This document shows, piece by piece, positions 18,108-57,372 of a stretch of 64,000 bases of DNA (its first letter is position 1; each line of letters begins with the position of its first letter). A program made the position numbers and the translations under genes. Under the pieces are notes generated by a model. The model made no database searches and was not told where the DNA came from. It was given only the letters and a program-made list of their open reading frames with translations. The DNA lies in NCBI RefSeq assembly GCF_900108095.1, contig NZ_FNWL01000003.1, positions 236,501 through 300,500 on the forward strand, read 5' to 3'. Origin of the DNA: Natronorubrum sediminis. GTDB lineage: Archaea > Halobacteriota > Halobacteria > Halobacteriales > Natrialbaceae.

Positions 18108-18109
18108 CG

Positions 18110-39954: not shown

Positions 39955-41652
39955 ATGATAGACGATAGTGATATCGAGCCACGCGTGGATACTTACCGGT
40001 TCTATCGCGAAGAGTGGGACGACTACGAAGAACTGTACGAGTCCTTCGAGTGGGAGATTCCCGAGACGTTCAACATGGCGACGTTCCTCTGTGAACGGTG
40101 GGCGACCGGCGAGGCCCGTCCCGCGCTCTTCGACGCCTCGAGCGCCAACTCGAGAACTCGATACAGTTTCGACCAGCTCGAGGAGAACGCGAACCAGCTC
40201 GCACAGGCGTTCGCCGACCGCGGGATCGAACGCGGGGACCGGATTGCTGTCAGCGGGGCACAGCGAGTCGAAACGCTCGTCACACACATCGCAGCGTGGA
40301 AACTCGGTGCCGTCTCGGTTCCGTTGAGCGTCCTCCTCGGCCCGGATGCGCTGTCGTTTCGCCTCGAGGACAGCGAGACAGTGGCATTCGTCGCCCACGA
40401 CGACAGTCTCGAGGCGCTCCGGACCGTTGCCCCCGATATCGGGGTGCTCGAAACCACGCTCGTCGTCGGTGACGAGTCGCTGACCGACGAGGAGACGGCG
40501 TTCTGGGATGCACTCGAGGGACAGCCATCGACGTTCGAGACCGTTTCGACGCCGGCCGACGATCCGGCGATGATGATCTACACGAGCGGGACAACCGGGA
40601 ACCCGAAGGGCGTGATTCACCCACACCGTAGCATGCTGGGTGCACTGCCGGCAGTGTTGCTCGGCCAGTACAACCTCCAGGTGCGTGCAGACGACGTCAA
40701 TCGCACCGTCGTCGAGTGGTCGTGGATCGGTTCGCTGTATCTCAGTCTCTTCCCGGCGCTGTACTTCGGCACGCCGACGGTTATCGATGCGAGCGGCGAA
40801 TTCGATCCGGAACGGGAGTTCGAACTGATCGATCGGTACGACGTGACGACGACTGGCGGTCCAGCGACTGCGCTTCGCATGCTGGTCCACTCCGAGAGCG
40901 CCGACCGATACGATCTCTCGAGCGTTCGCGTCATCGTTCAGGGTGGCGAGGCCCTCGATCGAGACACGGCAACGCGACTGACCGACGTTTTCGAGAACGC
41001 CGTCGTACACGAAGTGTACGGGCAGACAGAGGCCTTGCAGTTCGTCGCCGACTGCACGGCACTCGGGGTCGACCACCAGTTCGGTAAGATGGGCAAGGTC
41101 GCCCCCGGACACACCGTTCGGATTCAGGATCCTGAAACCGGCGAGTCCCTCGAGCGGGGTGAAGTCGGTGAAATCGCACTCGAGTACGACGGCAACCCCA
41201 TGTGCTTCGAGGAGTACTGGAACCGATCGGACGCTACCGCCGAAAAGGTTCAAAACGGGTGGTTACGAACCGAGGATCTGGGCGTGCTGTCCGAGGACGG
41301 TTATCTCTCCTTTCGAAGCCGAACGGACGACGTCATCATTAGCTCCGGCTACAAGATCGGCCCGACGGAAATCGAGGAGTGTCTGGCCGAACACGACGCG
41401 GTTGCTTCCTCGGGCGTGATCGGCGTGCCCCACGAAACGCGGGGAGAAATCCCCAAAGCGTTCGTGGTACTCACCGACGACGCCGACGCGTCCGAGTCGA
41501 TGCGAGAGACACTCCAAGACCACGTCCGCTCACGGCTGGCGAAGTACCAGTACCCCCGTGAGATCGAGTTTGCCGACGAACTTCCGAAGACGTCGACGGG
41601 CAAGGTTCGCCGTCTCGACCTGCGTAAGCGAGAAGGACTCGCGCCGTCTTGA
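39955..41652 (+). CDS. Acyl-CoA ligase of the benzoate-CoA ligase/MACS type
   Basis: A 565-residue ANL enzyme with an N-terminal extension (YRFYREEWDDYEELYESFEWEIPETFNMA) as in benzoate-CoA and medium-chain ligases. MIYTSGTTGNPKGV, YGQTEALQF, WLRTEDLGVLSEDGYLSF, SRTDDVIISSGYKIGPTEIE and PKTSTGKVRR are intact. It shares its subgroup with the ligase at 24455. It is followed by an MBL protein 51 nt away on the same strand, with its own promoter. An aromatic or medium-chain acid is the likely substrate class. Confidence 0.88.
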   Translation: MIDDSDIEPRVDTYRFYREEWDDYEELYESFEWEIPETFNMATFLCERWATGEARPALFDASSANSRTRYSFDQLEENANQLAQAFADRGIERGDRIAVSGAQRVETLVTHIAAWKLGAVSVPLSVLLGPDALSFRLEDSETVAFVAHDDSLEALRTVAPDIGVLETTLVVGDESLTDEETAFWDALEGQPSTFETVSTPADDPAMMIYTSGTTGNPKGVIHPHRSMLGALPAVLLGQYNLQVRADDVNRTVVEWSWIGSLYLSLFPALYFGTPTVIDASGEFDPEREFELIDRYDVTTTGGPATALRMLVHSESADRYDLSSVRVIVQGGEALDRDTATRLTDVFENAVVHEVYGQTEALQFVADCTALGVDHQFGKMGKVAPGHTVRIQDPETGESLERGEVGEIALEYDGNPMCFEEYWNRSDATAEKVQNGWLRTEDLGVLSEDGYLSFRSRTDDVIISSGYKIGPTEIEECLAEHDAVASSGVIGVPHETRGEIPKAFVVLTDDADASESMRETLQDHVRSRLAKYQYPREIEFADELPKTSTGKVRRLDLRKREGLAPS

Positions 41653-41702: not shown

Positions 41703-42692
41703 ATGGCAGATTCCGATCGAACGCCCGCGAGTGGGATCGAGCGACGGGTGCATCGATTCGAGTTCACGGTCGAATGGCCACCGGGACACGCGGCGGCGTA
41801 CCTCCTCGACGGTGACGAAACGGTCCTCGTCGACGCGGGGATGCCCGGCGACGACGCCAGAAGCGAGCTTTCCGCCGGCTTGGCCGCCTCTCGACACGAC
41901 CTCGACGTCGATCACCTCTTGCTCACCCACGCACACAGAGACCACATCGGGCAGGTTCGGACGCTACTCGAGAACGGATCGCCGACCGTGTACGCGCCAC
42001 GACAGATCGCAGAGCGATTCCAACGGGACGTAGAGACGATTGCGACGGCGACCCGGGCGAACCTCGTCGAGGCCGGCGTCGACGAGGACGTACTCGACAC
42101 TGCAGCCGACCGCCTCGTCGGATTTCATCGAACCATCCGGGAGCTACTGCCACTCGAGGCGGTCGACGTCTGGCTCGACCACGGGAGCCCCGTCGACATC
42201 GGCCCGCTTACAGTCGAGCCGATTCACGCGCCGGGCCATCACGTCTCGCAGTACTGCTATCGGACGGAACTCGACGGCGAGCGGACGCTGTTCTCCGGCG
42301 ACGTCGCGATGGAACCGTTTCGCGCGCCGGCACTGCTCGTCAACTTCGACGATGGCGTTCGCGAGTCGGTCACGACCTTCCTCGAGTCGTTACACCGCCT
42401 CACGTCGTACGCCGTCGATCGCGTCTATCCCGGCCACGGCCCGGTACACGCCGAGTACGACGCCATGGTCGCGCGATCGATTGCAGATATCGAGACGCGT
42501 CTCGAGGAGACCGTCGATGCAGTTTCGACGAACGGCACGACGGCGTTCGATCTCGCGTACGAACGAACAGGACGGACGCACGATATCGAACGCTTACTCG
42601 TCGAAACGGTCGGCATGCTCTCTCACCTCGAGACGGAGGGGCGTGTCGAATCGACGCTCGAGGACGGCGTTCGATACTATTTTCCGGTGTAA
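41703..42692 (+). CDS. MBL-fold metallohydrolase with intact zinc motif
   Basis: A 329-residue metallo-beta-lactamase-fold protein. The HAHRDHIG motif supplies the zinc ligands, followed by APGHH, FSGDVAME and YPGHGPVH; all ligands are present. The C-terminal 60 residues form a winged-helix-like tail (FDLAYERTGRTHDIERLLVETVGMLSHL), as in MBL hydrolases related to glyoxalase II/LACTB2. A thioesterase or lactonase role in this island is plausible; a 4-hydroxy acid can lactonise, which makes a lactonase attractive. The start at 41703 fits the TATA box for a leaderless mRNA. Confidence 0.87.
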   Translation: MADSDRTPASGIERRVHRFEFTVEWPPGHAAAYLLDGDETVLVDAGMPGDDARSELSAGLAASRHDLDVDHLLLTHAHRDHIGQVRTLLENGSPTVYAPRQIAERFQRDVETIATATRANLVEAGVDEDVLDTAADRLVGFHRTIRELLPLEAVDVWLDHGSPVDIGPLTVEPIHAPGHHVSQYCYRTELDGERTLFSGDVAMEPFRAPALLVNFDDGVRESVTTFLESLHRLTSYAVDRVYPGHGPVHAEYDAMVARSIADIETRLEETVDAVSTNGTTAFDLAYERTGRTHDIERLLVETVGMLSHLETEGRVESTLEDGVRYYFPV

Positions 42693-42768
42693 GCATGCTG
42701 TCGACGGACCAGTGCGTGTCACCGCTATCGATCGGTGGGTCGGTGGCCACGCCAGTAGTCCACGCGAG

Positions 42769-42777
42769 ATTTTATTA
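42769..42777 (+). promoter_or_regulatory. TATA box for the leader ORF/SDR unit
   Basis: ATTTTATTA ends 24 nt before the ATG at 42801 (leader ORF), and about 100 nt before the SDR ATG. This predicts that the transcript begins at the leader ORF. Confidence 0.5.
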
Positions 42778-42800
42778 TCAGTGCCATGTAACTCAGAACG

Positions 42801-42881
42801 ATGGTACCGAACCACACGATATACGGTGAGCAGAATCGTCCACGATCCAACCAGCCTGTCGAGACGGAGGCTCTCCGATGA
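42801..42881 (+). CDS. 26-codon leader ORF coupled to the SDR gene
   Basis: Starts at the ATG at 42801, at leaderless distance from the TATA box, and ends with a TGA that overlaps the SDR ATG as ATGA. The SDR's Shine-Dalgarno (GGAGG, 42866-42870) lies inside it. The peptide begins MVPNHTIYGEQNRPR. The arrangement matches a translated leader that feeds ribosomes to the SDR start. No homology is expected at this length. Confidence 0.4.
   Translation: MVPNHTIYGEQNRPRSNQPVETEALR
42866..42870 (+). promoter_or_regulatory. Shine-Dalgarno of the SDR gene
   Basis: GGAGG, 7 nt before the ATG at 42878 and inside the leader ORF. Confidence 0.6.
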
Positions 42882-43651
42882 CGCGCTCGCAGTTCAGCGT
42901 CGATGGCCAGACGGCCGTCGTCACGGGTTCCTCGAGCGGGATCGGGAAGGCCATCGTCGAACGCTTTGCCGACGACGGCGCGAACGTCGTCGTCACCTCG
43001 AGAGAAGCGGCCAACGTCGAACCGGTCGCCGACGAAATCAACGAGAGCGATGCCCCCGGCGAGGCGCTCGCACTCGAGTGCGACGTGACGGACCGTGGTG
43101 CCGTCGAGGAACTCGTGCGGACGACCGTCGACGAGTTCGGTAGCCTCGATATTCTCGTTAACAACGCCGGCGCGAGCTTTCAAGCGTCGCCCGCCGAAAT
43201 CAGCGAGAACGGCTGGAAGACGATCGTCGACATCAACCTCCACGGGACGTTCCACTGCTCGCAGGTCGCCTACGAACAGATGAGTGCCGACAGTGGCGGC
43301 CAGATAATCAACGTTGCGAGCGTCGCCGGCCAGCGTGGCTCGAAGAACATGAGTCACTACGGCGCAGCCAAAGCGGCCGTCATCAACTACACGACCTCGG
43401 TAGCGGCCGACTGGTCGGAAGACGACGTGTGGGTCAACTGCATTGCTCCGGGCCTCGTTGCGACGGAGGGTGTTCGAACACAGATGGGAATCGACGGAGA
43501 TGTCGACGCGATCGATCGCTCGAGAGCCGACCGGACGATCGGTCGTCCCGAGGAGGTCGCCGATCTCGCACAGTTCCTCGCCAGTCCGGCATCGTCGTAC
43601 ATCGTCGGCGAGACGGTTACGATAAAGGGTGTCCCACGACTCGAGGAGTAA
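42878..43651 (+). CDS. Short-chain dehydrogenase/reductase (SDR), candidate 4-oxoacyl-CoA reductase
   Basis: A 257-residue classical SDR: TGSSSGIGKAIVERF (from residue 16), ILVNNAGASFQ, NVASVAGQRG and the active-site Tyr-Lys in SHYGAAKAAVINY. It is closest in type to 3-oxoacyl-ACP/CoA reductases and LvaD-like enzymes. In the levulinate pathway the SDR reduces the 4-keto group of 4-oxoacyl-CoA; the neighbouring kinases and ligase make that a reasonable assignment here, but a 3-hydroxyacyl-CoA dehydrogenase role cannot be excluded, since no classical one is visible in the window. Confidence 0.85.
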   Translation: MTRSQFSVDGQTAVVTGSSSGIGKAIVERFADDGANVVVTSREAANVEPVADEINESDAPGEALALECDVTDRGAVEELVRTTVDEFGSLDILVNNAGASFQASPAEISENGWKTIVDINLHGTFHCSQVAYEQMSADSGGQIINVASVAGQRGSKNMSHYGAAKAAVINYTTSVAADWSEDDVWVNCIAPGLVATEGVRTQMGIDGDVDAIDRSRADRTIGRPEEVADLAQFLASPASSYIVGETVTIKGVPRLEE

Positions 43652-43695
43652 CTGATTCGCTCTTCGGGATCGACGTCCGAGAACGGTGTGGTCCG

Positions 43696-44766
43696 TTAGC
43701 TTTGAATCTCGTTGTGTCGCTGCTCTAACTCCTCTTGCAACGGAACGATGTCGGACCAGTCGATCCAGACGAGGTCGTCCGGGTCTTCGGTGTACTCCGC
43801 GCGTTCAGTGATCTCTTCGGGAGGGTCCTCGAGCGGAACGGGGTATTTGTGAGTTTGTGCCAGTTCGACGGCGTTCTCGCGTTCGTAGATAAAGTCGAGA
43901 AGATCGTACACCTCCTCTTTCATGTCGCTTTCCTCGACGATGGAGAACGCGGTCGACCACGTGATACACCCCTCCTCTGGTATAACGTACTCGACCGGGT
44001 AGCCGTCCTCCTGAAGGTTCTCCGCACGTCCGCCCCACCCTTCGGAAACGGCGGCCTGTTCCTCTCGGAGCAACCGCATGAACTCGTCGCCGGCGGTCCA
44101 GTAGGTGAACACGTTCTCGTGTTGGTCTTCCATCTCTGCGACGGCGTCCTCGTAGAGGTCGTCGTCGTTCGCGGCCTCCGCGATGTCGTATCCGAGGCTC
44201 GCGCACGAATTTCCGAACCGCGAAACGGCGCTGTCCTGGAGCGTCAATTCGCCGTCGTACTCCTCGTCTTTCATATCTTCCCACGACGAGATATCGCCGT
44301 GTTCGGTGTTGTAGATCAACCCCTGAGTCGAAATGTAATAAAAAATTCCGTAGGGATTGTCGTCAACGAGCGGTGCAGACTGCCAGGCGTCGTCCACGTT
44401 GTCGTAGTTCGGGACTCGATCGACGTCGATCTCCGCGAAGAGACCCTCGTCGTGCTCGAGTCGGTTGAGTTCGTATGCCCACGATACTAAGTTCGCGAAG
44501 TCGAAGTCGTTCGGATTGGCTGCGATGAGTTCGACCATCTCGGCGTCGTCCGCGACTTCCTGGTGTGTGACGTCGATCCCGCTATCTGCGCTCCACTCTT
44601 CGAACAGTTCGCGTTCGGCGTCCTGCGTGATTCCACCGCGGCTAATGTATCCGAGCGTGTCGTCGTCGCTGCCCCCCAGACACCCCGCAACGGCGGCTCC
44701 CGCGACGACGCTGCCCGTCTGAAGCACCTGTCTCCTCGTCGGTTGTTGAATGGTATTGTCTACCAT
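43696..44766 (-). CDS. PotD-like solute-binding lipoprotein, paralogue 3
   Basis: A 356-residue Tat lipoprotein (PTRRQVLQTG; Cys29 in AVAGC). The DTLGYISRGGITQDAEREL segment, TYWTAGDEFMRLLREEQ, SEGWGGR and EYVIPEEGC are nearly the same as in paralogue 1, making these two the closest pair. It lies convergent to the SDR and divergent from the LvaB-like gene, inside the proposed 4-hydroxy acid module, so it may capture that substrate. A TATA-like box (44791-44798) precedes it. Confidence 0.88.
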   Translation of the reverse strand: MVDNTIQQPTRRQVLQTGSVVAGAAVAGCLGGSDDDTLGYISRGGITQDAERELFEEWSADSGIDVTHQEVADDAEMVELIAANPNDFDFANLVSWAYELNRLEHDEGLFAEIDVDRVPNYDNVDDAWQSAPLVDDNPYGIFYYISTQGLIYNTEHGDISSWEDMKDEEYDGELTLQDSAVSRFGNSCASLGYDIAEAANDDDLYEDAVAEMEDQHENVFTYWTAGDEFMRLLREEQAAVSEGWGGRAENLQEDGYPVEYVIPEEGCITWSTAFSIVEESDMKEEVYDLLDFIYERENAVELAQTHKYPVPLEDPPEEITERAEYTEDPDDLVWIDWSDIVPLQEELEQRHNEIQS

Positions 44767-44790
44767 ACTACTCGTTCCTCACTAGTGGCC

Positions 44791-44798
44791 TATATTAA
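44791..44798 (-). promoter_or_regulatory. TATA box of PotD-like paralogue 3
   Basis: TTAATATA on the minus strand, 25-32 nt before the ATG at 44766, giving a leaderless or nearly leaderless mRNA. Confidence 0.5.
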
Positions 44799-44950
44799 TC
44801 CTCTTATTGCAACCGTCGTCACAGAACGAATACTAACCGATACGGCTAATAAGATAAAATCGGCGGTCCACACAATTGAAGATGAGGCCACAGTCGAACA
44901 GACAACCGGGCGAAACATCTTTTTAGGTGCCAATGGATTGTTGCGAAAGA

Positions 44951-45406
44951 ATGCCACACTTACAGCCAGCACACGTGCTCGAGGAGTTCGCATCGTTCCT
45001 GCAGAACGATGTCAGAGCGGAGATCGACGACGAGTTCGTCGACGGACAGGTGGGATCGATGTCGAGTACGATGCGATATCTTTCACGACAACTGCGGCAG
45101 AAACACGAGATAACGGTTCGACAACGCGATTCGCTGCTCGAGGGACTCGCGGCCATCGAACAAGACTGCGACGACCCAGCAGTCGTCGAATCGGTTGCGG
45201 CCGCCCAGGAACGAATCGAGAGGACGCCTGCAGAAGAGAGCACCGAACTGGAAACCGTCCTCGTTTCGACGTGCAACGACGTCCTCGAGACGATCGACGC
45301 GGAACTCGAGGGCGACGACGCCGGGTCAGCGCGGGAGCCGCTGTACGACTTCTTGCGGGTCCGCGTCGAGGGCCAACTCGAGATGCTCGGACGTGATGCA
45401 CCATGA
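44951..45406 (+). CDS. LvaB-like small protein (resembles DUF6285), partner of the kinase
   Basis: A 151-residue, mostly helical acidic protein starting at the ATG at 44951 (MPHLQPAHVLEEFASFLQNDV). Its N-terminal helix pattern (AxxVLEEFASFLQNDVRAEI...) followed by SSTMRYLSRQLRQKHE resembles the small DUF6285 proteins that sit directly before APH-type kinases in bacteria; in the levulinate pathway LvaB is such a protein and is needed for LvaA activity. Here it overlaps the kinase gene as ATGA, the same arrangement. The similarity is judged by eye and is moderate. Confidence 0.65.
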   Translation: MPHLQPAHVLEEFASFLQNDVRAEIDDEFVDGQVGSMSSTMRYLSRQLRQKHEITVRQRDSLLEGLAAIEQDCDDPAVVESVAAAQERIERTPAEESTELETVLVSTCNDVLETIDAELEGDDAGSAREPLYDFLRVRVEGQLEMLGRDAP

Positions 45407-46479
45407 CACTCGAGGTCGACGACATCACGGGCGAACTCGCAGCGTATCTCTCGGGTCGGTTGGCCGACGACGACGTGACGGTGACCGACCTCGAGCGCCA
45501 CACGGAGGGATGGTCCCGACAAACGATGTCGTTCACGGCTACCTGGACGGACGACGGCACCGAGCGATCGAAGCGACTCGTCGCACGCGTCGATCCGAGC
45601 TACGAGGAGGATCGAACGTTCGATTATCGCAACGATATCCAGACCGAGTTCGAGACGATGCAGTCGGTGTACGAAGCCGACGTCGACGTTCCCGTTCCGG
45701 AGACGCACTGGTTCGAAGCCGATCAATCGGTGCTCGGTGGTCCGTTTTTCCTGGTCGGCCACCGACACGGGACGGCGCCAGTCACTTGGAATCCGCGGGA
45801 CCGCCAGTCACTGTACGACTCCTGGGATCGCGAGGGTAAGCCTTTGCCGAACCACTTCGTCGACGTCATCGCGAACATCCACGAACTCGATGGCGACGAC
45901 GTCCCCTGTCTCGAGACGAAAGACCCCCAGACGGTCGTCGACGAGACGCTCGCGTTGCAGCGACGAAGTTTCGAGGAGATGAACCTCGTCAACGAACCGG
46001 CGGTGAACGAAGTCATCAGTTGGCTCGAGGCGAACAAGCCAGCGGTTCCCGAAACGACGCTCGTTCACGGCGATTTACGCGTTGGAAATATGTTACTCCA
46101 CGAGGAGTCGATCTCCGCCGTACTCGACTGGGAAATGTCGGCCATCAGCGACCCGATGTTCGATCTGGCCTACTGCTCGCTGAAGTATTTCGCCGGAAAA
46201 CTCGTCGATCCGATCGAGCGACCGAACCTGGCGGGTTCGATCGTCGACCGCGAGTGGTTCTACGACGAGTACGAGAAGCGAACCGGCCGGACGGTCGACC
46301 CGGAACGCCTGCGCTACTGGCAGGTTTTCGGTGCGTTCCGAATGATGAACAGCGGTGTCAGCGGTGCCTACCGATACCACACTGGTGAGAGTGACGACGT
46401 TCGAACTGCGTGGTTCCAGTACATCATTCCCGGGCTGATCGAGGATATGCTCGATCTGATCGAAGCCGATCGAACCTGA
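45403..46479 (+). CDS. APH-fold phosphotransferase (LvaA-like acyl-CoA kinase candidate), copy 1
   Basis: A 358-residue kinase of the aminoglycoside/choline phosphotransferase fold. The catalytic loop is VHGDLRVGNMLL (Asp base, Asn metal ligand), the DFG-equivalent is VLDWEMSAISDP, and the N-terminal lobe contains LVARVDP (Lys replaced by Arg at the usual nucleotide-binding position). In bacteria and mammals this group (LvaA, ACAD10/11 kinase domain) phosphorylates the 4-hydroxyl of 4-hydroxyacyl-CoA. Coupled to the small upstream protein and followed by a ligase. Confidence 0.85.
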   Translation: MTLEVDDITGELAAYLSGRLADDDVTVTDLERHTEGWSRQTMSFTATWTDDGTERSKRLVARVDPSYEEDRTFDYRNDIQTEFETMQSVYEADVDVPVPETHWFEADQSVLGGPFFLVGHRHGTAPVTWNPRDRQSLYDSWDREGKPLPNHFVDVIANIHELDGDDVPCLETKDPQTVVDETLALQRRSFEEMNLVNEPAVNEVISWLEANKPAVPETTLVHGDLRVGNMLLHEESISAVLDWEMSAISDPMFDLAYCSLKYFAGKLVDPIERPNLAGSIVDREWFYDEYEKRTGRTVDPERLRYWQVFGAFRMMNSGVSGAYRYHTGESDDVRTAWFQYIIPGLIEDMLDLIEADRT

Positions 46480-46612
46480 GTCGAGTCGGTATTCTCGGTT
46501 CGCTGGCTGATCGTGTCTCGGTCATTTAGTCGTCGCTTTTGAGCAACGTTGCTCTCCTCGGAGTATCGGTCGCGTCACAACAGCTATTCCGGATGATGTC
46601 AATTGACACCAT

Positions 46613-48139
46613 ATGAGCGGCTTGACAGTCGGCCATGTGGCACGGCGAAACGCGCGGAAGTTTCCGGATCAAGAAGCCACGATCTATCGTTCCGACGGAC
46701 GACGGGTCAGTGCGTACACCTACGAGGAGTTCGAAACGCGCGTGAATCGTGTTGCAAACGGCCTCTCGACTCTCGGTATCGGTGCCGGGGATACGGTCGC
46801 CTTGTACATGAAGAACAACGTCGAGACCCTCGAGTGTTTCGTCGGCGCGATGATGATCGGTGCGCGGCCGGTCGCGGTCAACCACCGATTCAAGGGATCG
46901 GAGGTGCGCTACGTCCTCGACGATAGCGGCCCCACGGTCGCGATACTCGATTCGTTCGGTGCGGAGACGATTTCCGAGATCCACGACGACCCCCTCGTTC
47001 CGGTCGAGACGTTTCTCTACGTCGGCGAGCAGCCACCGCAGTTCACCACACCGTACGAACAATTTCTCGAGGACGCGTCGGACGCCGCTATCGACATCGT
47101 TCCGGACCGTCGCGACCAGGCCGCGCTCATGTACACGAGCGGGACGACCGGCCGACCGAAGGGCTGTCGCTTCACCCACGACACCCTCCTGACCCTTGCG
47201 ACCGATGGCGTCTACGAAGGTGACCACCTCGAGCCCGGCAATCGCCACCTCATCGTCACGCCGTTGTTTCACGTCGGCGCGTTCGTGCCCTTCGTCACCA
47301 ACCTCTACGTCGGCGGGACGACGGTGGTCACCGACGGCTTCGATCCGGAGCGCGTCCTGCAACTGCTCGAGGACGAGTCGATCAACTCCTCGTACTTCGT
47401 GCCGACTCAGAGTCGGCAGCTCCTGTCGGTCGACAATGTCGACGCGTACGACCTCTCGGCGCTCGAGAGCTACGGAACCGGCGCTGCGCCGTCGGGCGCG
47501 GAACTCAAACGCGACGTCATGAAGACCTTCGAGACGGACCTCGTTGAGAGCTTCGGACAGACCGAAGCGTTAGCGACCCGCCTCCCGCCCGAGCGGACGA
47601 TCGAGAAGGCCGACAGCGTCGGCCGTCCATCGTTGAACCTCGAGATGAAGGTCGTCGACGATGACGGAAATCGCCTTCCCCCCGGTGAAGTCGGTCGCGC
47701 GGCGTACAGCGGCCCCACCGTCTTCGACGGCTACCACAACATGCCCGAGAAGACCGACGAGGTATTCGACGACGGCTGGTTCGTCTCGGACGACCGCATC
47801 GAGCGAGACGAAGAGGGGTTCGTCTACTTCGTCGGGCGAGCGGACGACATGATCGTTTCCGGCGGTGAGAACATCCATCCGGCTGAGATCGAGGAAGTCA
47901 TCCACGAACACCCGTCCGTCGACGAGGTTGCGGTGATCGGCGTCCCCGACGAGACGTGGGGCGAACGGGTGAAGGCGGTCGTCGTTCCGGACGCCGATGC
48001 GACGGAACTCCAAGCGGCGGATATTATCTCTCACGTCGAAGAACGGATTGCCGGCTACAAGAAGCCTCGAGCGGTCGAATTCCGGTCCGAACTCCCGCGG
48101 AATCCGACCGGAAAGGTACTCAAAACGGAACTCGAGTGA
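46613..48139 (+). CDS. Class I adenylate-forming acyl-CoA ligase (LvaE-like position)
   Basis: A 508-residue ANL enzyme: LMYTSGTTGRPKGC, ESFGQTEALAT, GWFVSDDRIERDEEG, GRADDMIVSGGENIHPAEIE and PRNPTGKVLK. It is a near-paralogue of the ligases at 8555 and 31774. Its place directly after the kinase gene (133 nt) suggests that it makes the 4-oxo- or 4-hydroxyacyl-CoA on which the SDR and kinases act. A seven-codon ORF at 46593-46616 (MMSIDTI) overlaps the start as ATGA. Confidence 0.9.
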   Translation: MSGLTVGHVARRNARKFPDQEATIYRSDGRRVSAYTYEEFETRVNRVANGLSTLGIGAGDTVALYMKNNVETLECFVGAMMIGARPVAVNHRFKGSEVRYVLDDSGPTVAILDSFGAETISEIHDDPLVPVETFLYVGEQPPQFTTPYEQFLEDASDAAIDIVPDRRDQAALMYTSGTTGRPKGCRFTHDTLLTLATDGVYEGDHLEPGNRHLIVTPLFHVGAFVPFVTNLYVGGTTVVTDGFDPERVLQLLEDESINSSYFVPTQSRQLLSVDNVDAYDLSALESYGTGAAPSGAELKRDVMKTFETDLVESFGQTEALATRLPPERTIEKADSVGRPSLNLEMKVVDDDGNRLPPGEVGRAAYSGPTVFDGYHNMPEKTDEVFDDGWFVSDDRIERDEEGFVYFVGRADDMIVSGGENIHPAEIEEVIHEHPSVDEVAVIGVPDETWGERVKAVVVPDADATELQAADIISHVEERIAGYKKPRAVEFRSELPRNPTGKVLKTELE

Positions 48140-48169
48140 TCGGTCGGGAGTGGGTCTCCTCCGCGGCGT

Positions 48170-49417
48170 TCAGATGAAGTCGAAGAGATGGCCGGCGACG
48201 CGACGTTTTTGAATTTCTTCGGAACCCTCCGTGATGCGGTAGCGCCGGTGATGGCGATAGATATGTTCGAACGGCTTGTGCCGACTGTATCCGACGCCAC
48301 CGTGGACCTGCATCGCGCGGTCTGCTGCTCGACAGACGAGGTCGTTCGCCTTGTAGTTACACATCGCGACGAGTTGGCTGATCGAGGATCCCGACTCGGT
48401 CACCATCTCGCCTTCGTCGTCCAGGAGGCGGGCCGTCTTTCTGATCGTATTACGGAGCATCTCCGCTTCCGTGTGCAGTTCCGCGAGCGGGAACTGGATG
48501 GCCTGTCGCGTCGAGAGCGGTTTCCCCCACGTTTCCCGTTCGTTCGCGTAATCGACGGCCTCGTCGATACAGAACTGCGCGGCACCGAGACTCGCCGCGG
48601 CCTGTCGAATGCGGTTTTCGTGGACGAAAAACTGCGCGATGTGGAGCCCTTGTCCTTCCTCGCCGAGGATCGCCGAATCCGGCACTCGAGCGTCGTCGAT
48701 CGACACTTCGGCGTGGTCGGTCGGCATGTTGAACGTCCACCAGAAGTAGTCGACCTCGAATCCGTCGGTGTCTGTCGGCACCAAAAACGCTGTGATACCG
48801 TCGGAATCACCGTCCTCGCCGCTGGTCCGGGCGAACACGAGGTCGTACTCTGCGGCGTGCATCCCGCTGTTCCAGCGCTTCGCGCCGTTGATGACCCACT
48901 CGTCGCCGTCTTTCTCGGCGGTCGTATCCATCCACGTCGCGTCGCTACCGTGGTCGGGTTCGGTGAGTCCGAAGGCGACACCCGTCTCGCCGGCGATGAC
49001 GTCCTCGATCATCGCCTGTTGTTCGTCAGTTCCGAAGCGAAGTAGAATCTGGGGGAATACGGTATTGCCGACGACCGACGCCTCGTTCTGGAGGACGTTG
49101 TGCAAGCCGATCCCCTTGTTGGCCAGGTGCTCCCGAATCACTGCCATCGCGAAGTTCGAGCCGTCGTCACCGCCGACCGCCTCGGGGAGCGCGAACCGGA
49201 AGAATCCCGCCTCGTCCGCGCGCTCTCGCATCTCCTGGAGGAGTTCTACCCACTCTTCGTCGGGTTCACCACCCGACTCCCAGTCGGTACGCGCATGTTC
49301 CCGACGTTCGTCGAAGTACTGGATGTGTTCTTCCTCGAGTGGTTCGATTTCGGTTTCGATGAATTCGTCGAGGTCGTCTATGTATGATTGTAGCTCTTCG
49401 GATGGGCTAATCTCCAT
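48170..49417 (-). CDS. Acyl-CoA dehydrogenase
   Basis: A 415-residue ACAD: GFFRFALPEAVGGDDGSNFAM, FGLTEPDHGSDATWMD, INGAKRWNSGMHAAEYD, YANERETWGKPLSTRQAIQFPLAE, HGGVGYSRHKPFEHIYRH and ITEGSEEIQKRRVAG with the catalytic Glu. It should be a normal alpha,beta-dehydrogenase. Start chosen at the ATG at 49417; the in-frame TTG three codons upstream is less likely. It reads opposite to its neighbours, convergent with the ligase (30 nt between stops), so it is regulated separately. Confidence 0.9.
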   Translation of the reverse strand: MEISPSEELQSYIDDLDEFIETEIEPLEEEHIQYFDERREHARTDWESGGEPDEEWVELLQEMRERADEAGFFRFALPEAVGGDDGSNFAMAVIREHLANKGIGLHNVLQNEASVVGNTVFPQILLRFGTDEQQAMIEDVIAGETGVAFGLTEPDHGSDATWMDTTAEKDGDEWVINGAKRWNSGMHAAEYDLVFARTSGEDGDSDGITAFLVPTDTDGFEVDYFWWTFNMPTDHAEVSIDDARVPDSAILGEEGQGLHIAQFFVHENRIRQAAASLGAAQFCIDEAVDYANERETWGKPLSTRQAIQFPLAELHTEAEMLRNTIRKTARLLDDEGEMVTESGSSISQLVAMCNYKANDLVCRAADRAMQVHGGVGYSRHKPFEHIYRHHRRYRITEGSEEIQKRRVAGHLFDFI

Positions 49418-49674
49418 GTCGACCAACTTATCCGTACACTACCAAAAAATTACGCTTCTTCTCAATTTGTGTAGTCTCCACGGTCTGCTGTAACGTTTTA
49501 CTAGGACACCCACAGAACGGTTCGCGGTTGGGCCTGAAATGATATACCGCAGCCCAGTAGAGGCCGGAACCGATGGACACCAGCCCGTTAGGGGGTGGCA
49601 CCGACGCAGGCCATTCGCGCGATACGAGAGATTTTATGCATGTATCTGAATGGTAGTGATCGAGGTATCCAAGG

Positions 49675-50790
49675 ATGTCCGACGACCAGACTGATTACTT
49701 CGACCGACTCGTTGATCTCGACGCCCTCGAGGCGTTTTTGGCAGCCCATCTCGGCTCGGCCGACGTCTTCGAGGTCGACCGCCACCCGGGAGGCCATTCG
49801 AACGAGACGCTCTTCGTCACGTGGGACGACCGAAATCTCGTTGTTCGTCGTCCTCCACCAGGCGAGACGGCTGATACGGCACACGATGTGATTCGTAAAT
49901 ACACGGTTCTCGAAGCGCTTCAGGCGACCCACGTTCCCGTCCCGACGACGGTCGTCGCGACCGAAGACCACGACATCATTGGCTCTGATTTCTACGTGAT
50001 GGAGAAACGGGAGGGAGTCGTCATCCGCGACGACGAACCCGATCAGTTCGCTACGCCGACGGATCGAACGCGGTTGGGAACCGAGATGATCGACACGCTC
50101 GCTGCGATTCACACTGTCGACTACGAGACGGTCGGACTCGAGGAATTTGGCCGTCCAGACGGATTTACGCAGCGACAGGTCGACCGCTGGGAACAGCAAT
50201 ACGAGTGGGCGTTCGAGGTGACGGCCGAGGCACGCGAGATTCCTGCGGTTCACGAACTAACCGAGTGGTTACAGGCAAACGTCCCATCGGATCATCCACA
50301 CACGCTGGTTCACGGCGACTACAAGCTCGATAACGTGATGTTCGGGCCGGCCGGGGAACGCAACGCATCCTCGAACGAGCGATCGAGTGATGCCCGCGAG
50401 CAACCGCCGGAACTCGAGGCCGTGCTCGACTGGGAGATGTCGACGATCGGTGACCCGTTTACCGATCTCGGCTGGCTCCTCTCGTACTGGCCCGACGAGG
50501 ACGATGCCACGACGAAAGTCGGCACCGCCGGCGACGCCGAGTATCTGCTCCGAGAGGGGTATCACTCGCGAGCGGAACTCGTCGAGCGCTACGAGCAAGC
50601 GACCGGCTATCGCTTCGAGAACGATCGCTTCTATCGCGCGTTGGCCTACTACAAACTGGGCGGGATCGGCGAGATGTTCTTTCGTCGCCACCTCGAGGGC
50701 AACGCCGACGACGACCACTATCCAATCATGGAAGAGCGGGTTCCAGAAATGGCTCGACGGGCACTGCAAATTATCGACGGTGAGGGCTAA
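49675..50790 (+). CDS. APH-fold phosphotransferase (ACAD11-kinase-like), copy 2
   Basis: A 371-residue kinase. The Gly-rich N-terminal GGHSNETLFVTW, LVVRRPPPGE (Arg in the nucleotide-binding position), catalytic LVHGDYKLDNVMF and VLDWEMSTIGDP are all present. This PPxGE...HGDYKLDN form is that of the ACAD10/11 kinase domain and its bacterial stand-alone relatives, which phosphorylate 4-hydroxyacyl-CoA. Residues 240-260 hold a hydrophilic insert (ERNASSNERSSDAREQ). It is a second, distinct kinase rather than a recent copy of the one at 45403. Confidence 0.87.
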   Translation: MSDDQTDYFDRLVDLDALEAFLAAHLGSADVFEVDRHPGGHSNETLFVTWDDRNLVVRRPPPGETADTAHDVIRKYTVLEALQATHVPVPTTVVATEDHDIIGSDFYVMEKREGVVIRDDEPDQFATPTDRTRLGTEMIDTLAAIHTVDYETVGLEEFGRPDGFTQRQVDRWEQQYEWAFEVTAEAREIPAVHELTEWLQANVPSDHPHTLVHGDYKLDNVMFGPAGERNASSNERSSDAREQPPELEAVLDWEMSTIGDPFTDLGWLLSYWPDEDDATTKVGTAGDAEYLLREGYHSRAELVERYEQATGYRFENDRFYRALAYYKLGGIGEMFFRRHLEGNADDDHYPIMEERVPEMARRALQIIDGEG

Positions 50791-50863
50791 CACGACGGGC
50801 ACGTCGATCCGCCACTGGCTGACTCGCGGCGTTCTCGAACTACCACTTCCCTCTACATCTCGT

Positions 50864-50925
50864 CCGATCCCGCTGCAGATCGTTCCCAACGAACCCGATC
50901 CCGCTGCAGATCGTTCCCAACGAAC
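50864..50925. repeat. Perfect 31-bp tandem duplication
   Basis: Two identical head-to-tail units (50864-50894 and 50895-50925), each beginning CCGATCCCGCTGCAGATCGT. Only two copies, no spacer, so not a CRISPR. Confidence 0.9.
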
Positions 50926-50976
50926 GACCGGTATCGCGTCTCAACGGGGTTCCGTCGCGAGCAATTAGTGGTTCTT

Positions 50977-51040
50977 AGACCACCATCCCAACGTCAGCGG
51001 CGCTGTTTTTCAGACCACTATCCCAACGCGGCGCTGTTTT
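50977..51040. repeat. Imperfect tandem duplication
   Basis: AGACCACCATCCCAACG... (50977) is repeated as AGACCACTATCCCAACG... (51012). Both units continue through GCGGCGCTGTTTT, differing by a short indel. The T-run at each end resembles haloarchaeal terminators. Confidence 0.7.
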
Positions 51041-51195
51041 CGAGAGGTGGGACAGTGTACACGGACAAACGTTACCTCCCGAGGTGGAAACGTGTTACAG
51101 AATAACAGTAGCTGCCGACGAGTTTGCAGTCGAATCAGCCGTCTCCAATTCCGGTCTGCGAACGCTCGAGACGATAGTTGCATCTCCTATTGGCG

Positions 51196-52293
51196 TCACC
51201 CTGCCATCACGTCGTTGACCCGCTCCGTAATCTCATCCAGGTTCGAAATCATCGAGTCCCAGTCGATCCAGAGGAGGTCGTCAGGATCCTCGACGTACTC
51301 GAATAGTTCAGTCAACTCGTCTGACGGATCTTCCATGGCCATCGGGTAGTTGTGGCTGGTGCTCAACTCGACGGCTCTATCTGGCTCGTAGAGCCAGTCC
51401 AGGAGGTCGTAGACGTGTTCTTGGTTCTCGCTCTCTTGAGTTATCACGAAGTAGTTCGTGTGGGCGACTGCGCCTTCGTCGGGGATGACGTACTCAGTGT
51501 CCATCCCTTCCTCGTTTAACACCTGCACACGCCCGCCCCACGCCGAGGACGCGTAGGCCTGTTCCTCTCGCATCCACTGCATGAATTGGTCACCGGCGTC
51601 CCAGTAATTGAAGACGTACTCGTTCTGTTCTTCCATCTCATCGAAGACGTCTTCGAACATATCCTCGTCTTCGAAGACTTCGCCGACGTCGTACTCGAGC
51701 GCAGCACAACAGTTCCCGAACCGAGTCGGCGGTGATCCGAACAGCGCGACGTGACCCGCGAGATCGTCGTCTTTGAGATCGTCCCAGGACGTAATCTCGT
51801 CGACGTGTTCTTGGTTGTAGCCGATCCCTTGAGAGGACATGTAGTAGAATATCGCGTCGTCTTCTCCATCGATCGGTGGCGCCTCCTTCCACTGGTCCTG
51901 GACGTTTTCCTCGTAGTTTGGAATCTCGCCAGTATCGATTTCGTCGAACAGTTCGCCGTCGTGTTCGAGTCGCTCTAACGCCAGTCCGAACTGCGCCGGG
52001 TTCGTAAAGTCGAACTCACCTGGATTTTCCGCGATGAGATTGATCATCTCGGTGTCGTCGGCCGCTTCCTGGTGTTGGACATCGATTCCACTGTCCTCGC
52101 TCCACTCTTCGAACATCTCTCGCTCGGCATCTTGAGTCGTCCCACCGCGACTAATGTATCTAAGCGTGTCATCGTCACCACCCATACAGCCGGCAAGGCC
52201 AATCCCTGAAACTACCGCACCCGTTTGCAGGACCCGTCGTCGAGTCGTTCCCCGCCCGTCGTCGGAACCCTGTCTCTTGTTAATCTGTGTCAT
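51196..52293 (-). CDS. PotD-like solute-binding lipoprotein, paralogue 4
   Basis: A 365-residue Tat lipoprotein (TTRRRVLQTG; Cys36 in GLAGC). DTLRYISRGGTTQDAEREMF, NYWDAGDQFMQWMREEQ, SAWGGR and EYVIPDEGA match the other paralogues. The ATG at 52293 lies 22-34 nt from a TATA-like box (52315-52327); the longer frame would read through that promoter. It stands between the kinase and the LLM gene and reads away from the LLM. Confidence 0.88.
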   Translation of the reverse strand: MTQINKRQGSDDGRGTTRRRVLQTGAVVSGIGLAGCMGGDDDTLRYISRGGTTQDAEREMFEEWSEDSGIDVQHQEAADDTEMINLIAENPGEFDFTNPAQFGLALERLEHDGELFDEIDTGEIPNYEENVQDQWKEAPPIDGEDDAIFYYMSSQGIGYNQEHVDEITSWDDLKDDDLAGHVALFGSPPTRFGNCCAALEYDVGEVFEDEDMFEDVFDEMEEQNEYVFNYWDAGDQFMQWMREEQAYASSAWGGRVQVLNEEGMDTEYVIPDEGAVAHTNYFVITQESENQEHVYDLLDWLYEPDRAVELSTSHNYPMAMEDPSDELTELFEYVEDPDDLLWIDWDSMISNLDEITERVNDVMAG

Positions 52294-52314
52294 CGTATTC
52301 TCTTCTTTGGGGGA

Positions 52315-52327
52315 CCATAATAAATAA
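52315..52327 (-). promoter_or_regulatory. TATA box of PotD-like paralogue 4
   Basis: TTATTTATTATGG on the minus strand, 22-34 nt before the ATG at 52293. Confidence 0.5.
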
Positions 52328-52374
52328 TTTGGATGATTTACGGGTGAATCTCTCGGGTAATTAGAATAGGTCAC

Positions 52375-52458
52375 TAAAAGCGGTCGTCGCCTCCGAACAC
52401 AGCACGTGACTCACGATAAAAGCGGTCGTCGCCTCCGAACACAGCACGTAACTCACGA
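52375..52458. repeat. 42-bp tandem duplication between divergent genes
   Basis: Two head-to-tail 42-bp units (52375-52416 and 52417-52458) differ at one base (GCACGTGAC versus GCACGTAAC). Each begins TAAAAGCGGTCGTCGCCTCC. It lies in the divergent promoter region of paralogue 4 and the LLM gene, and could double a regulator site. Confidence 0.9.
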
Positions 52459-52566
52459 CCGCAATTGAACCCTCTTCGGAGTGACTTCCGACCAACGACG
52501 TTCAGTTTAAGGAAGTATTCCTCGGCGGTACTATTATCTTTCTACCTGTCGTTAGTCTGCTCGAAC

Positions 52567-53586
52567 GTGACAGACCTCAAAATCGACACAGCAGTGAAAG
52601 GATTATCGACTGAATCAGCCGACCTTGCGGCCCAAGCCGAATCGTTTGGCTTCGATGGAGTGTTCACACCAGAGACCGACGAAGATCCGTTCCTCCCCCT
52701 TCCCCTCGTCGCCGACCAGACTACCGATATCGAGATCGGTACCCGAATCGCGACGTCCTTCACTCGGTCGCCGATGGTTCTTGCCTACCAGGCGTGGGAC
52801 TTACAGCGATTCACCGATGGTCGGATGATCCTCGGGCTCGGTACGCAAGTCAAAGGACACAACGAACGCCGGTTTTCTGTTGATTTCGAGTGGGAGAGCC
52901 CAGGTTCGCGGCTCCGCGAGGAGGTTATCGCACTCAAACATATCTTCGATGTCTTCCAGGGCAACGAAGACGAACTCGATTTCGACGGCGAGTTCTTCCA
53001 GTTCTCGCTTATGACCGACGAGTTCAATCCCGGCCCGCTCGAGGCTGGTCCTCCGGACATTTGGGTTGCCGGCGTCAGCGAATACATGCTCAAGATGGCC
53101 GGTGACGTGTCGGACGGGCTCTGTATGCACGCGTTTAACACGCCGAAGTACACCGAAGAGGTCATCGTCCCAACGGTCGAGGAGGGCGCCGAAATCGGTG
53201 GCCGCGACCCCAACGACGTGACGCTTTCTGCGAGCCCGTTCCTCATTACGGGCGAGACCGAGGAACGACGCGCCGAAATGCGTCAGGAGGCAAAACAGCG
53301 CATCGCCTTCTACGGATCGACCAGAACCTACCACGACGTCCTCGAGCTACACGGCTGGAAAGACGTCGGAATGGAATTACACGAACTCTCGAAGGAAGGG
53401 AAGTGGGACGAGATGACGGAACTGGTGACCGACGAGATGGTTGCAGCATTTGCGATCGAAGCCGAGCCGGATACGCTTGCGGAGAAAATCGAGGAGAAAT
53501 ACGGTGGTGTTGCCGACCGAATCCAGCTGTCTTTCGACGGGAGCGAGTATTGGAGTGACGTCCTCGAGGAGCTCAAGGACGATTGA
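52567..53586 (+). CDS. LLM-class F420-dependent oxidoreductase (distinct subgroup)
   Basis: A 339-residue LLM protein starting at GTG 52567 (VTDLKIDTAVKGL). The upstream frame has no homologous sequence, and CTATTATCT at 52531-52539 lies at leaderless distance. Marks: AESFGFDGVFTPETDEDPFLPL, SFTRSPMVLAYQAWDLQRFTDGRMILGLGTQVKGHNERRF and DIWVAGVSEYMLKMAGDVSDG. This AYQAWDLQ...GTQVKGH subgroup differs from the other two LLM proteins and is commonly F420-dependent. It probably shares the transcript with the ACAD at 53680, 93 nt downstream. Confidence 0.88.
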   Translation: MTDLKIDTAVKGLSTESADLAAQAESFGFDGVFTPETDEDPFLPLPLVADQTTDIEIGTRIATSFTRSPMVLAYQAWDLQRFTDGRMILGLGTQVKGHNERRFSVDFEWESPGSRLREEVIALKHIFDVFQGNEDELDFDGEFFQFSLMTDEFNPGPLEAGPPDIWVAGVSEYMLKMAGDVSDGLCMHAFNTPKYTEEVIVPTVEEGAEIGGRDPNDVTLSASPFLITGETEERRAEMRQEAKQRIAFYGSTRTYHDVLELHGWKDVGMELHELSKEGKWDEMTELVTDEMVAAFAIEAEPDTLAEKIEEKYGGVADRIQLSFDGSEYWSDVLEELKDD

Positions 53587-53679
53587 GTACCGATCGCTGT
53601 TCATCCTCTATCGTCATCCGAAATCGGTGAGTGTTCCTCAATAGCATAGATTTACAAATGCGTATATTGATCATGTGGT

Positions 53680-54930
53680 ATGGAGTACCACGACTCCGAA
53701 ACAGCACAGGAGGTAGCGGCGCGTGTCGAATCGTTCATGGACGAACAAGTGATTCCTCGCGAGCGCGAGGCACTTCGCAGCGGTGAACCGGTCAGCGAGG
53801 CGGAGATCGAGGAGTTCTGGGGGATGGCGAAAGAACGCAATCTCTTTGCACCGCAGATGCCCGAGGAGTACGGCGGACAGGGACTCGACTTCCAGGACAT
53901 GCTACCGTCGTTCGAACAGGTTGGTCGATCGCTCCTCGGCGCGCTTTCGATCCGAGCCAATGCACCGCACGAGGGGAACATGCACACCCTGGAATTGGTC
54001 GGGACGGAAGCGCAGAAAGAAGAGTGGCTTCGCCCGCTCGTTCAGGGTGAAATCTCGTCTGCGTTTTCGATGACCGAACCGATGGGAGGCGGCGGATCGG
54101 ATCCGAAAATGTTGCAGACGACCGCGCAGAAGGACGGCGACGAGTGGGTCATCAACGGCCACAAATGGTGGACGTCCGACGGTGCTGACGCGGATTTTCT
54201 CCTGGTAATGGCTCGAACCGACCTCGACGCCCACCCCTACGAGGGAACCTCGATCATCCTCGTCCCGACAGACACGGACGGCGTGAACGTGGTTCGAAAC
54301 GTCGGCCACCTCGGCGGTCACGGGATCACCGAGCGAACTGGCGGCCACGCGGAAGTGAAATACGAGAACGTTCGCGTTCCCGTCGAGAACACGGTCGGCG
54401 AAGAGGGAGCGGGCTTCAGAGTCGCGCAGATGCGCTTGGGTGGCGGCCGACTCACGCACTGCATGCGCTACTCCGGGATGGCCGAGCGCTCGCTCGAGAT
54501 CGCAAAAGCATACATCAGCGAACGCGAGGGCTTCGGATCGACGCTTTCGGACAAGCAGGCGCTTCGCCACCGGATCGCCGACGCGGAGACACGCTTACAC
54601 GCTGCACGGGCAACATCACGCCACGCCGCCCGCGAACTCGATCGCAGCGACGCCCGCATCGAAGTCGCGATGGCCAAGAACTTCACTGCGAACGTTACGA
54701 ACGAGATCATCGACCTCGCGATCCAGTGTTGTGGTGCGAATGGGATCGGAAAGGATCTGCCGTTAGCCCACTTCTACGAGAACGTCCGCCCGTTCCGGAT
54801 CGTCGACGGTGCCGACGAGGTTCACCGCCGCTCGATCGCTCGCTGGGCGTTCGACGACGTCGACGAAACGGAGATCGAGAACGTCCTCCGATTCGATGAG
54901 AAGCGGCGCGTGGACGCTCTCGACGAGTGA
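53680..54930 (+). CDS. ACAD10/11- and LvaC-type acyl-CoA dehydrogenase
   Basis: A 416-residue ACAD of the ACAD10/11 branch: FAPQMPEEYGGQG, INGHKWWTSDGADADFLLVMARTD, SIILVPTDTDGV, the signature RLGGGRLTHCMRYSGMAERSLE, and RIVDGADEVHRRSIAR at the C-terminus in place of EGTxxIQ. In mammals ACAD10/11 and in bacteria LvaC use this fold to eliminate phosphate from 4-phosphoacyl-CoA, giving 2-enoyl-CoA, together with an APH kinase. The two APH kinases at 45403 and 49675 and the crotonase 61 nt downstream fit this role. Confidence 0.85.
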   Translation: MEYHDSETAQEVAARVESFMDEQVIPREREALRSGEPVSEAEIEEFWGMAKERNLFAPQMPEEYGGQGLDFQDMLPSFEQVGRSLLGALSIRANAPHEGNMHTLELVGTEAQKEEWLRPLVQGEISSAFSMTEPMGGGGSDPKMLQTTAQKDGDEWVINGHKWWTSDGADADFLLVMARTDLDAHPYEGTSIILVPTDTDGVNVVRNVGHLGGHGITERTGGHAEVKYENVRVPVENTVGEEGAGFRVAQMRLGGGRLTHCMRYSGMAERSLEIAKAYISEREGFGSTLSDKQALRHRIADAETRLHAARATSRHAARELDRSDARIEVAMAKNFTANVTNEIIDLAIQCCGANGIGKDLPLAHFYENVRPFRIVDGADEVHRRSIARWAFDDVDETEIENVLRFDEKRRVDALDE

Positions 54931-54991
54931 GAGCGGCCATCTGATCTGAACCAGAAATACAATACTCTACCAACGAAACCCATTCACAGCT

Positions 54992-55783
54992 ATGAACGAG
55001 TGTAACAACTTCAACGTCGAGCAGACGGAGGCTGGTATCGCGTACCTCTCGATCGAGAGCGAGTCGGCGATGAACTCGCTGAACGACGGCATGACCGAAG
55101 AGCTACTGTGGCTCGGAACGGAACTCAACGAGGACGACGACGTCCGCTGTATCGTTCTGCGCGGATCCGACGGTGTATTCTGTGCCGGCGGAAATATCTC
55201 CTCGTTCGAGGAAAACTCGAGTGCAACGTCCCAGATCCGGCGTGGTGCGTCGTTCCTCAATAACGTTGTCTACCAGCTAAAACGTGGAGAAACGCCGATT
55301 ATCACCGGTATCGACGGACCGGCTGTCGGCGCTGGGTTTGCCCTCGCACTGTTAGGCGACATCTCGCTTATGCACGAGGAGGCATATCTCCAGTTCGGTT
55401 ACCCTGGTATCGGATTGACCGGTGACGGTTCGGCGACGTACTATCTTCCACATCTCGTCGGACTCCAAGAGGCGAAGCGAATCGCGTTGCTCAACGAGCA
55501 AATATCACCGGATGAAGCCGAAGAAATCGGTCTCGTTACGGAGGTTGCGGACAGTGATTCGTTCGACGACCGCCTCGAGGAACTCGCGACCTCGCTCGCG
55601 ACGGGTCCGACCAAGGCATTGAGTTCGATCTCTCGACAGCTCGAGGAAGCGTACGCTCGACAGCTGTCCGAACAACTTGCCAGTGAAGCTACGGAAATCT
55701 CGGAGGCGACGAGGACCGAAGATTACGCAGAAGGTGTGAGCGCGTTCAAGGAGAAACGAGACCCCGACTTCGTCGGCCATTAA
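54992..55783 (+). CDS. Crotonase-fold protein lacking both hydratase glutamates
   Basis: A 263-residue enoyl-CoA hydratase/isomerase family protein. The oxyanion region VFCAGGNISSFEE is intact. Where hydratases have Glu (PE...; AKE...), it has LQFGYPGIGLTGDGSATYYLP and LQEAKRIALLNEQ, with Gly and Arg. It is therefore probably an isomerase (shifting a 3-enoyl to a 2-enoyl double bond) or another crotonase reaction. Its position 61 nt after the ACAD10/11-type enzyme suggests it acts on that product. Confidence 0.88.
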   Translation: MNECNNFNVEQTEAGIAYLSIESESAMNSLNDGMTEELLWLGTELNEDDDVRCIVLRGSDGVFCAGGNISSFEENSSATSQIRRGASFLNNVVYQLKRGETPIITGIDGPAVGAGFALALLGDISLMHEEAYLQFGYPGIGLTGDGSATYYLPHLVGLQEAKRIALLNEQISPDEAEEIGLVTEVADSDSFDDRLEELATSLATGPTKALSSISRQLEEAYARQLSEQLASEATEISEATRTEDYAEGVSAFKEKRDPDFVGH

Positions 55784-56945: not shown

Positions 56946-57372
56946 GTGCCCTGGTGCCACATCAACAGATAAAACGCTTTGCCCAACTGCTGCCATCGTA
57001 TCCGGTCTGCAGTGGGGGCCCCGACTCGAGTTGGCAGGATTTTCTTCTGGCCAGAATTGCAGAGACGCCCTGTGTACCACACGAATTGGACTCCAGAACA
57101 CAGAATATTTCTTAGGTATAGTGGAATATGTGAAACATAATGTTTAATACTGGGGGCGGGATTTCACTGAAATATGTGTACTGGTATCGTGGCCCATTTA
57201 TCGTTGCGTCGGTCGTTTTTTGGACCACCATTCGATGGAACGGGCCTACTGACGTTGATCGGTACACATGGGGTGACCGTATCGCTCGGCGACAATCAAC
57301 ATTGAGATCGGGCTCTAAGGTACACAACGAAATAACCGATCGAGTAGATAATTACTGAGAGAGAAGATACGC
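56946..57372. other. Divergent region between binding protein and ABC transporter
   Basis: About 430 nt, AT-richer in the middle. GATAATTA near 57347-57354 lies 19-26 nt before the ATPase ATG and may be its TATA box. A 72-codon frame at 57140-57358 (start MFNTGGGISLKYVYWYRGPF) has no family marks and I do not call it a gene. Confidence 0.45.
56969..56976 (-). promoter_or_regulatory. TATA box of PotD-like paralogue 5
   Basis: GTTTTATC on the minus strand, 24-31 nt before the ATG at 56945. Confidence 0.5.

Follow-up and report, generated by a model that had tools for sequence, protein, structure and literature searches.

The stretch analyzed here, referred to as the window, comprises 64,000 nucleotides of the haloarchaeon Natronorubrum sediminis (contig NZ_FNWL01000003.1, positions 236,501 to 300,500), and contains a locus with two kinases of the aminoglycoside phosphotransferase (APH) fold and two acyl-CoA dehydrogenases (ACADs) that are central to this study. 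Genes are designated by their first coordinate in the window (Table 1). Kinase 2 (49675) and ACAD 53680 are called module A, and the small protein 44951, kinase 1 (45403) and ACAD 48170 module B. A preliminary description made from the sequence alone had named the short-chain dehydrogenase/reductase (SDR) 42878, protein 44951, both kinases, ligase 46613, ACAD 53680 and the crotonase, and all of these are open reading frames with correct coordinates and family names. The locus additionally contains ACAD 48170, the luciferase-like monooxygenase (LLM) family oxidoreductase 52465, the metallo-beta-lactamase (MBL) fold hydrolase 41703, ligase 39955 and solute-binding proteins, which had not been named.

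Table 1. Genes of the kinase/ACAD locus in the window.
Feature	Coordinates	Strand	Evidence and remarks
AMP-forming acyl-CoA ligase, candidate activating enzyme	39955..41652	+	PF00501/PF13193; 84-95% identity in four syntenic loci
MBL-fold hydrolase, lactonase or thioesterase possible	41703..42692	+	
SDR, candidate 4-oxo/4-hydroxyacyl-CoA oxidoreductase (LvaD-like role)	42878..43651	+	relatives (61-81% identity) adjoin module A genes in many Halobacteria
Tat/lipobox-type solute-binding protein; the island has several	43696..44766	-	sequence; kept in syntenic loci
Module B small protein, 151 aa, five helices, partner gene of kinase 45403	44951..45406	+	no known family
Kinase 1 (APH fold), module B	45403..46479	+	separate clade, outside the ACAD11 kinase clade
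AMP-forming acyl-CoA ligase	46613..48139	+	53-59% identity to genes close to module B in Halomarina, Haloterrigena and Natrinema plasmids
ACAD of module B	48170..49420	-	sister to HCMR clade; F/Q/A/E at R626/H634/R637/D753
Kinase 2, module A, APH family, ACAD10/11-kinase type	49675..50790	+	R86/R176/D220/N225 equivalents present; Lys75 for alpha-C Glu
F420-dependent LLM oxidoreductase	52465..53586	+	TIGR03617 (exceeds NCBI cut-off); in Halomarina close to module B
Module A ACAD (ACAD10/11/LvaC type), candidate enzyme for phosphate elimination from 4-phosphoacyl-CoA	53680..54930	+	
Crotonase (enoyl-CoA hydratase/isomerase family)	54992..55783	+	

The end of 44951 overlaps the start of kinase 45403 by four bases (ATGA), and the start of 44951 is backed by a Met-Pro that is invariant across 11 homologues. 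Within the limits of the retrieved stretches, the gene order is conserved, with 71-100% identity, in Natronolimnohabitans innermongolicus, Salinadaptatus halalkaliphilus and the sampled haloarchaeal genomes G120 and G144. Because the same genes occur in the same order in four other haloarchaea, the arrangement is not due to chance.

ACAD 53680 contains the motifs QMRLGGGRLTHCMRYSGMAER and VDGADEVH, which had been taken as marks of ACAD10/11. A residue set from R626 to D753 has been described as uniquely common to ACAD10/11 and LvaC, and its HCMR motif as essential (PMC12440821). In our alignment ACAD 53680 has all seven diagnostic residues (R626, R631, H634, C635, M636, R637 and D753 in mouse ACAD11 numbering). 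The same set is present in all 13 aligned archaeal homologues, 53680 included, in eight LvaC-type proteins of lva-like clusters and in ACAD11, and it is absent from the ordinary ACADs of the alignment, including others encoded in the window. The closest solved structures are 4hr3 and ACAD11 (8v3u, 8v3v, 2wbi). In a maximum-likelihood tree all 31 HCMR-type proteins, among them mouse and human ACAD11 and bacterial LvaC, form one clade (100/100), within which the 13 archaeal proteins are a single subclade (100/100); 53680 groups with ACAD11 and LvaC instead of with ordinary fatty-acyl ACADs. The marks seen at first are therefore confirmed by residues, structures and phylogeny. Judged by its sequence, ACAD 53680 is a true ACAD10/11/LvaC-type enzyme by family, with a predicted phosphate-eliminating activity.

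Kinase 49675 has 9o56, 3dxp and the kinase domain of ACAD11 (6.5e-45) as its closest solved relatives. The archaeal kinase 2 proteins form one clade (99/99) with the ACAD11 kinase and with kinases adjoining bacterial HCMR or HAMR ACADs, and 49675 keeps equivalents of the catalytic Asp220 and Asn225 and of the CoA-contacting Arg86 and Arg176. Together with its near-perfect co-occurrence with the HCMR ACAD, described in the following, this identifies 49675 as an ACAD11-type kinase.

The distribution of both families was analyzed in 292 Halobacteria genomes, with a cut-off of E below 1e-90 for the ACAD and E<=1e-80 for the kinase; 20 further genomes with matches at about 1e-61 were taken to contain ordinary ACADs on the basis of the E-value gap and were not individually checked. 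The ACAD family is present in 145 genomes and the kinase family in 144. Both occur together in 144 genomes, the ACAD alone in one, the kinase alone in none, and 147 genomes have neither (Fisher p 4e-85, ignoring the relatedness of the genomes). Some genera (e.g. g2, g3, g5, g7 and g27) mix genomes with both genes and genomes without both, and therefore the two genes seem to be gained and lost together. The starts of the two genes are at most 2.5 kb apart in at least 54 of the 292 genomes, and the SDR family of 42878, which had been assigned to the same pathway, indeed accompanies the pair, lying within 12 kb of the kinase in at least 80. Further common neighbours encode a HAD hydrolase, a 3-hydroxyacyl-CoA dehydrogenase/hydratase and MaoC. 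Among 197 genomes sampled across the phylum, 15 have an ACAD match at E<=1e-75, and all of these belong to the window's own order. As a unit, the kinase/ACAD pair is widespread among haloarchaea, about half of those sampled having it. This distribution also bears on the view that the kinases act on unrelated small molecules, in detoxification or antibiotic modification, and lie beside ACADs by chance or for regulation. The APH fold would agree with it, and automatic models name aminoglycoside or macrolide phosphotransferases with weak scores; however, these scores are far under the curated cut-offs, kinase 2 clusters with the ACAD11 kinase, and, of the 145 genomes with an HCMR ACAD, 144 encode kinase 2, which is absent from all genomes without this ACAD. 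We consider this view highly improbable.

The preliminary description had placed both kinases in one pathway, which is supported for 49675 but not for 45403. In the tree, kinase 45403 is outside the ACAD11 kinase clade; it joins its archaeal homologues (100/100) and then Sulfitobacter and strain QY30 kinases with a downstream partner of about 157 aa (94/88). ACAD 48170 groups with its relatives as the sister lineage of the HCMR clade (95/88); the positions of R, H, R and Asp in HCMR enzymes are occupied in this lineage by F, Q, A or S, and the catalytic Glu, respectively. The families of 44951 and ACAD 48170 are found in the same seven of the 292 Halobacteria genomes, with two marginal partial matches set aside, and both are near kinase 1 in most of the archaeal loci retrieved. 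The AlphaFold model of 44951 is a confident five-helix bundle (pLDDT 90). Foldseek found no structure similar to it at E<=0.001, and its highest VIA-align Z, 9, is within the range typical of common helical bundles. On these grounds 44951, 45403 and ACAD 48170 are a linked, rare second kinase/ACAD module, whose chemistry may differ from that of module A.

It had been proposed that 44951 is LvaB-like, so that 44951 and 45403 would be an archaeal LvaB/LvaA pair acting with ACAD 53680 on 4-hydroxyvaleryl-CoA, and 49675 would be another kinase of this kind. A small helical protein overlapping a kinase resembles the LvaA/LvaB layout, and by BLAST LvaA is nearer to 45403 (27.8%, 8e-23) than to 49675 (23.5%, 4e-15); for these comparisons LvaA and LvaB were taken from a genuine lva operon on Pseudomonas aeruginosa pPA272. 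A plasmid of Sulfitobacter alexandrii (L067, 3947-8311) also unites a related kinase, a 157-aa protein, a ligase and an HCMR ACAD. However, Pfam and NCBIfam searches gave no DUF6285 (PF19802) match in 44951 or anywhere in the genome, the profile-profile probability of 44951 with DUF6285 is 3.6%, and matches in HMM searches between 44951 and LvaB are no better than those of shuffled sequences. The assignment of 44951 as an LvaB/DUF6285 relative was dropped after these searches, although a distant link below detection may exist. Moreover, the LvaA kinases with a DUF6285 partner form a clade of their own (100/99) that does not include 45403, and the ACAD linked to 44951/45403 is 48170, not 53680. 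It is thus unlikely that 44951 and 45403 are an LvaB/LvaA pair. A tentative alternative, to which we give somewhat less than even chances, is that module B encodes an undescribed two-subunit acyl-CoA kinase with a new small partner, together with an ACAD10/11-sister ACAD without the 4-phosphate site, and would handle a differently placed hydroxyl group or another substrate. Elsewhere in haloarchaea (L021, L023, L024, L060, L084), module B adjoins genes for hydantoinase A/B (acetone-carboxylase-like), acetoacetate-decarboxylase-family, LLM and 2-oxoacid dehydrogenase proteins, hinting at a ketone or branched substrate. The 157-aa kinase partner of S. alexandrii has no DUF6285 match and no clear match to the archaeal 44951 type.

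Module A can be compared with several known systems. Mammalian ACAD10 and ACAD11 remove the hydroxyl group of 4-hydroxy acids after its phosphorylation (PMC12440821, PMC11342911). The archaeal proteins share with animal ACAD10/ACAD11 the kinase clade, the ACAD clade, the seven ACAD residues and the Asp, Asn and CoA-contacting Arg of the kinase; in contrast, kinase and ACAD are encoded by separate genes, a fused ACAD10-type HAD domain is missing, and the window kinase has Lys75. The HAD neighbour of some haloarchaeal clusters was considered as an equivalent of the ACAD10 HAD domain, but its best model is TIGR02253 and not epoxide-hydrolase-N, and this candidate was dropped. The Pseudomonas lvaABCDE operon, represented here by that of P. 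aeruginosa pPA272, has an LvaC-type ACAD (of 38% identity and with the same motif), an SDR, an acyl-CoA ligase and an APH-fold kinase in common with the archaeal locus, whereas the kinase that co-occurs with the archaeal ACAD is of the ACAD11 type and not of the LvaA type, DUF6285/LvaB is lacking, and the archaeal locus contains ABC solute-binding proteins. Bacterial clusters of Deinococcus, Rhodococcus, Roseivivax, Acinetobacter and Caulobacter plasmids resemble the archaeal genes in the kinase clade, the HCMR or HAMR ACAD and the SDR, but they are mostly tight operons, and the archaeal kinases and ACADs form clades of their own. Histidine-phosphatase-family genes recur beside DUF6285/LvaA-type clusters (L063, L069, L071, L075). 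A parallel is seen in haloarchaeal module A clusters with their HAD genes, and a phosphatase seems to be a recurrent companion. In the 25-hydroxysteroid kinase route of Sterolibacterium, a free tertiary hydroxyl group is removed in an ATP-dependent manner by phosphorylation and elimination, with an unknown lyase (PMC8449060); its likeness to module B is one of idea, compared by description and not by sequence.

From family membership, active-site conservation, co-occurrence and synteny we infer the following reactions. An AMP-forming ligase would convert a 4-oxo or 4-hydroxy acid to its CoA thioester, and SDR 42878, a candidate 4-oxoacyl-CoA reductase in view of its gene association, would interconvert 4-oxo- and 4-hydroxyacyl-CoA. 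A kinase of the 49675 family, as suggested by the ACAD11-kinase clade and the kept residues, would then phosphorylate the 4-hydroxyl group of the CoA ester. In ACAD 53680, with its identical active-site set, the Arg/His/Arg cluster would hold the phosphate, and the redox-active FAD would eliminate it, yielding a 2-enoyl-CoA. Crotonases, a dehydrogenase and thiolases would complete the breakdown by beta-oxidation. A widespread archaeal kinase/ACAD route for 4-hydroxyacyl-CoA is well supported as a prediction, and the window probably encodes a split-gene form of the ACAD10/11 (LvaA/LvaC) route beside a second kinase module whose chemistry may be different. The earlier proposal that the island encodes this chemistry in separate genes is thus supported for 49675 and 53680 by motifs, trees, matches to solved structures and co-occurrence, but not for 44951 and 45403 as its LvaB/LvaA part.

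A lead to a substrate comes from Haloferax mediterranei, a bioplastic producer. On plasmid pHME132 of strain ATCC 33500, which we take to be the same strain as DSM 1411, genes for an SDR (69% identical to 42878), a HAD protein, the HCMR ACAD E6P09_RS18920 (62%), the kinase E6P09_RS18925 (57%) and a 3-hydroxyacyl-CoA dehydrogenase lie side by side. In mineral medium, levulinic acid is reported to support growth of H. mediterranei DSM 1411, with a top rate of 0.097 per h at 0.6 g/L (PMC12455835).

Several observations weigh against the proposed route. H. mediterranei is also reported to grow on formate at a similar rate (PMC12455835), and its growth on levulinic acid may be background growth. 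SDR 42878 is just 36% identical to LvaD over 193 residues, and SDR identity is a poor guide to substrate. In the window, other genes separate kinase 49675 from ACAD 53680, over a distance of about 3 kb. Lastly, kinase 49675 has a Lys at position 75 (AAA, 49897-49899) and no canonical alpha-C Glu. All remaining kinase 2 clade members of the alignment, including the paralogues, the G144 protein and the 98% identical copy of G120, have a Glu at this position. Kinase 49675 may be a weak copy, or the Lys may reflect a recent mutation or a sequencing error; by comparison of the sequences it bears on the activity of the 49675 copy, since the kinase 2 family overall retains the Glu.

The surrounding island (about 7-63 kb) contains many ligases (at least seven), ACADs, hydratases and thiolases, and is a large acyl-CoA catabolic locus whose substrate may be longer or branched. 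Steroid- or pimeloyl-type signatures occur among these enzymes, so that the substrate is no less likely to be a larger compound than to be levulinate. The island would then degrade, for example, a terpenoid, a steroid side chain, or an alicyclic or gamma-lactone-derived acid, and the kinase/ACAD pair would remove a 4-hydroxyl group arising on the way. The number of ligases, the several ACADs including the adjacent pair 16902/18110, thiolase 21642 and the ChsH2-like protein 63285 point in this direction, as do five more kinase 2 genes and two more HCMR ACADs elsewhere in the genome. We give this explanation about an even chance; it fits the chemistry of the kinase/ACAD route and competes on the substrate alone. 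In the adjacent ACAD genes (16902-19270) the usual catalytic Glu is missing; the two are similar to pimeloyl-CoA dehydrogenase or to heteromeric ACAD pairs of the steroid type, with 16902 as the pimeloyl-CoA-dehydrogenase-like member. Elsewhere in the genome (L045), a pair 75-81% identical to them is located close to kinase 2 genes. The ChsH2-like zinc-ribbon/OB protein (63285-63878) and the lipid-transfer-type thiolase (21642-22799) are a combination known from steroid side-chain catabolism. A gene 53% identical to MBL hydrolase 41703 lies near the second HCMR ACAD of the same genome. The island also encodes six solute-binding proteins (26161-29909, 37873-38961, 43696-44766, 51196-52374 and 55863-57101), several of one related type (DTLxYxSRGG), and one ABC transporter with an ATPase and two permeases (57373-60043).

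The preliminary description knew of no archaeal version of this pathway, and in agreement with this, no description was found in the open-licence literature on haloarchaea with levulinate or on haloarchaea with beta-oxidation and phosphotransferase; the word archaea is absent from the ACAD10/11 papers PMC12440821 and PMC11342911. The kinase/ACAD route has apparently not been described in archaea before. With this route, the ACAD10/11-Lva chemistry reported in mammals and bacteria would reach a third domain of life, where two genes form a common unit; in addition, a further kinase/ACAD pair, less common and differing in its active site, has been brought to light. The genes of the haloarchaeal kinase/ACAD pair are also candidates for explaining why H. 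mediterranei grows on levulinate.

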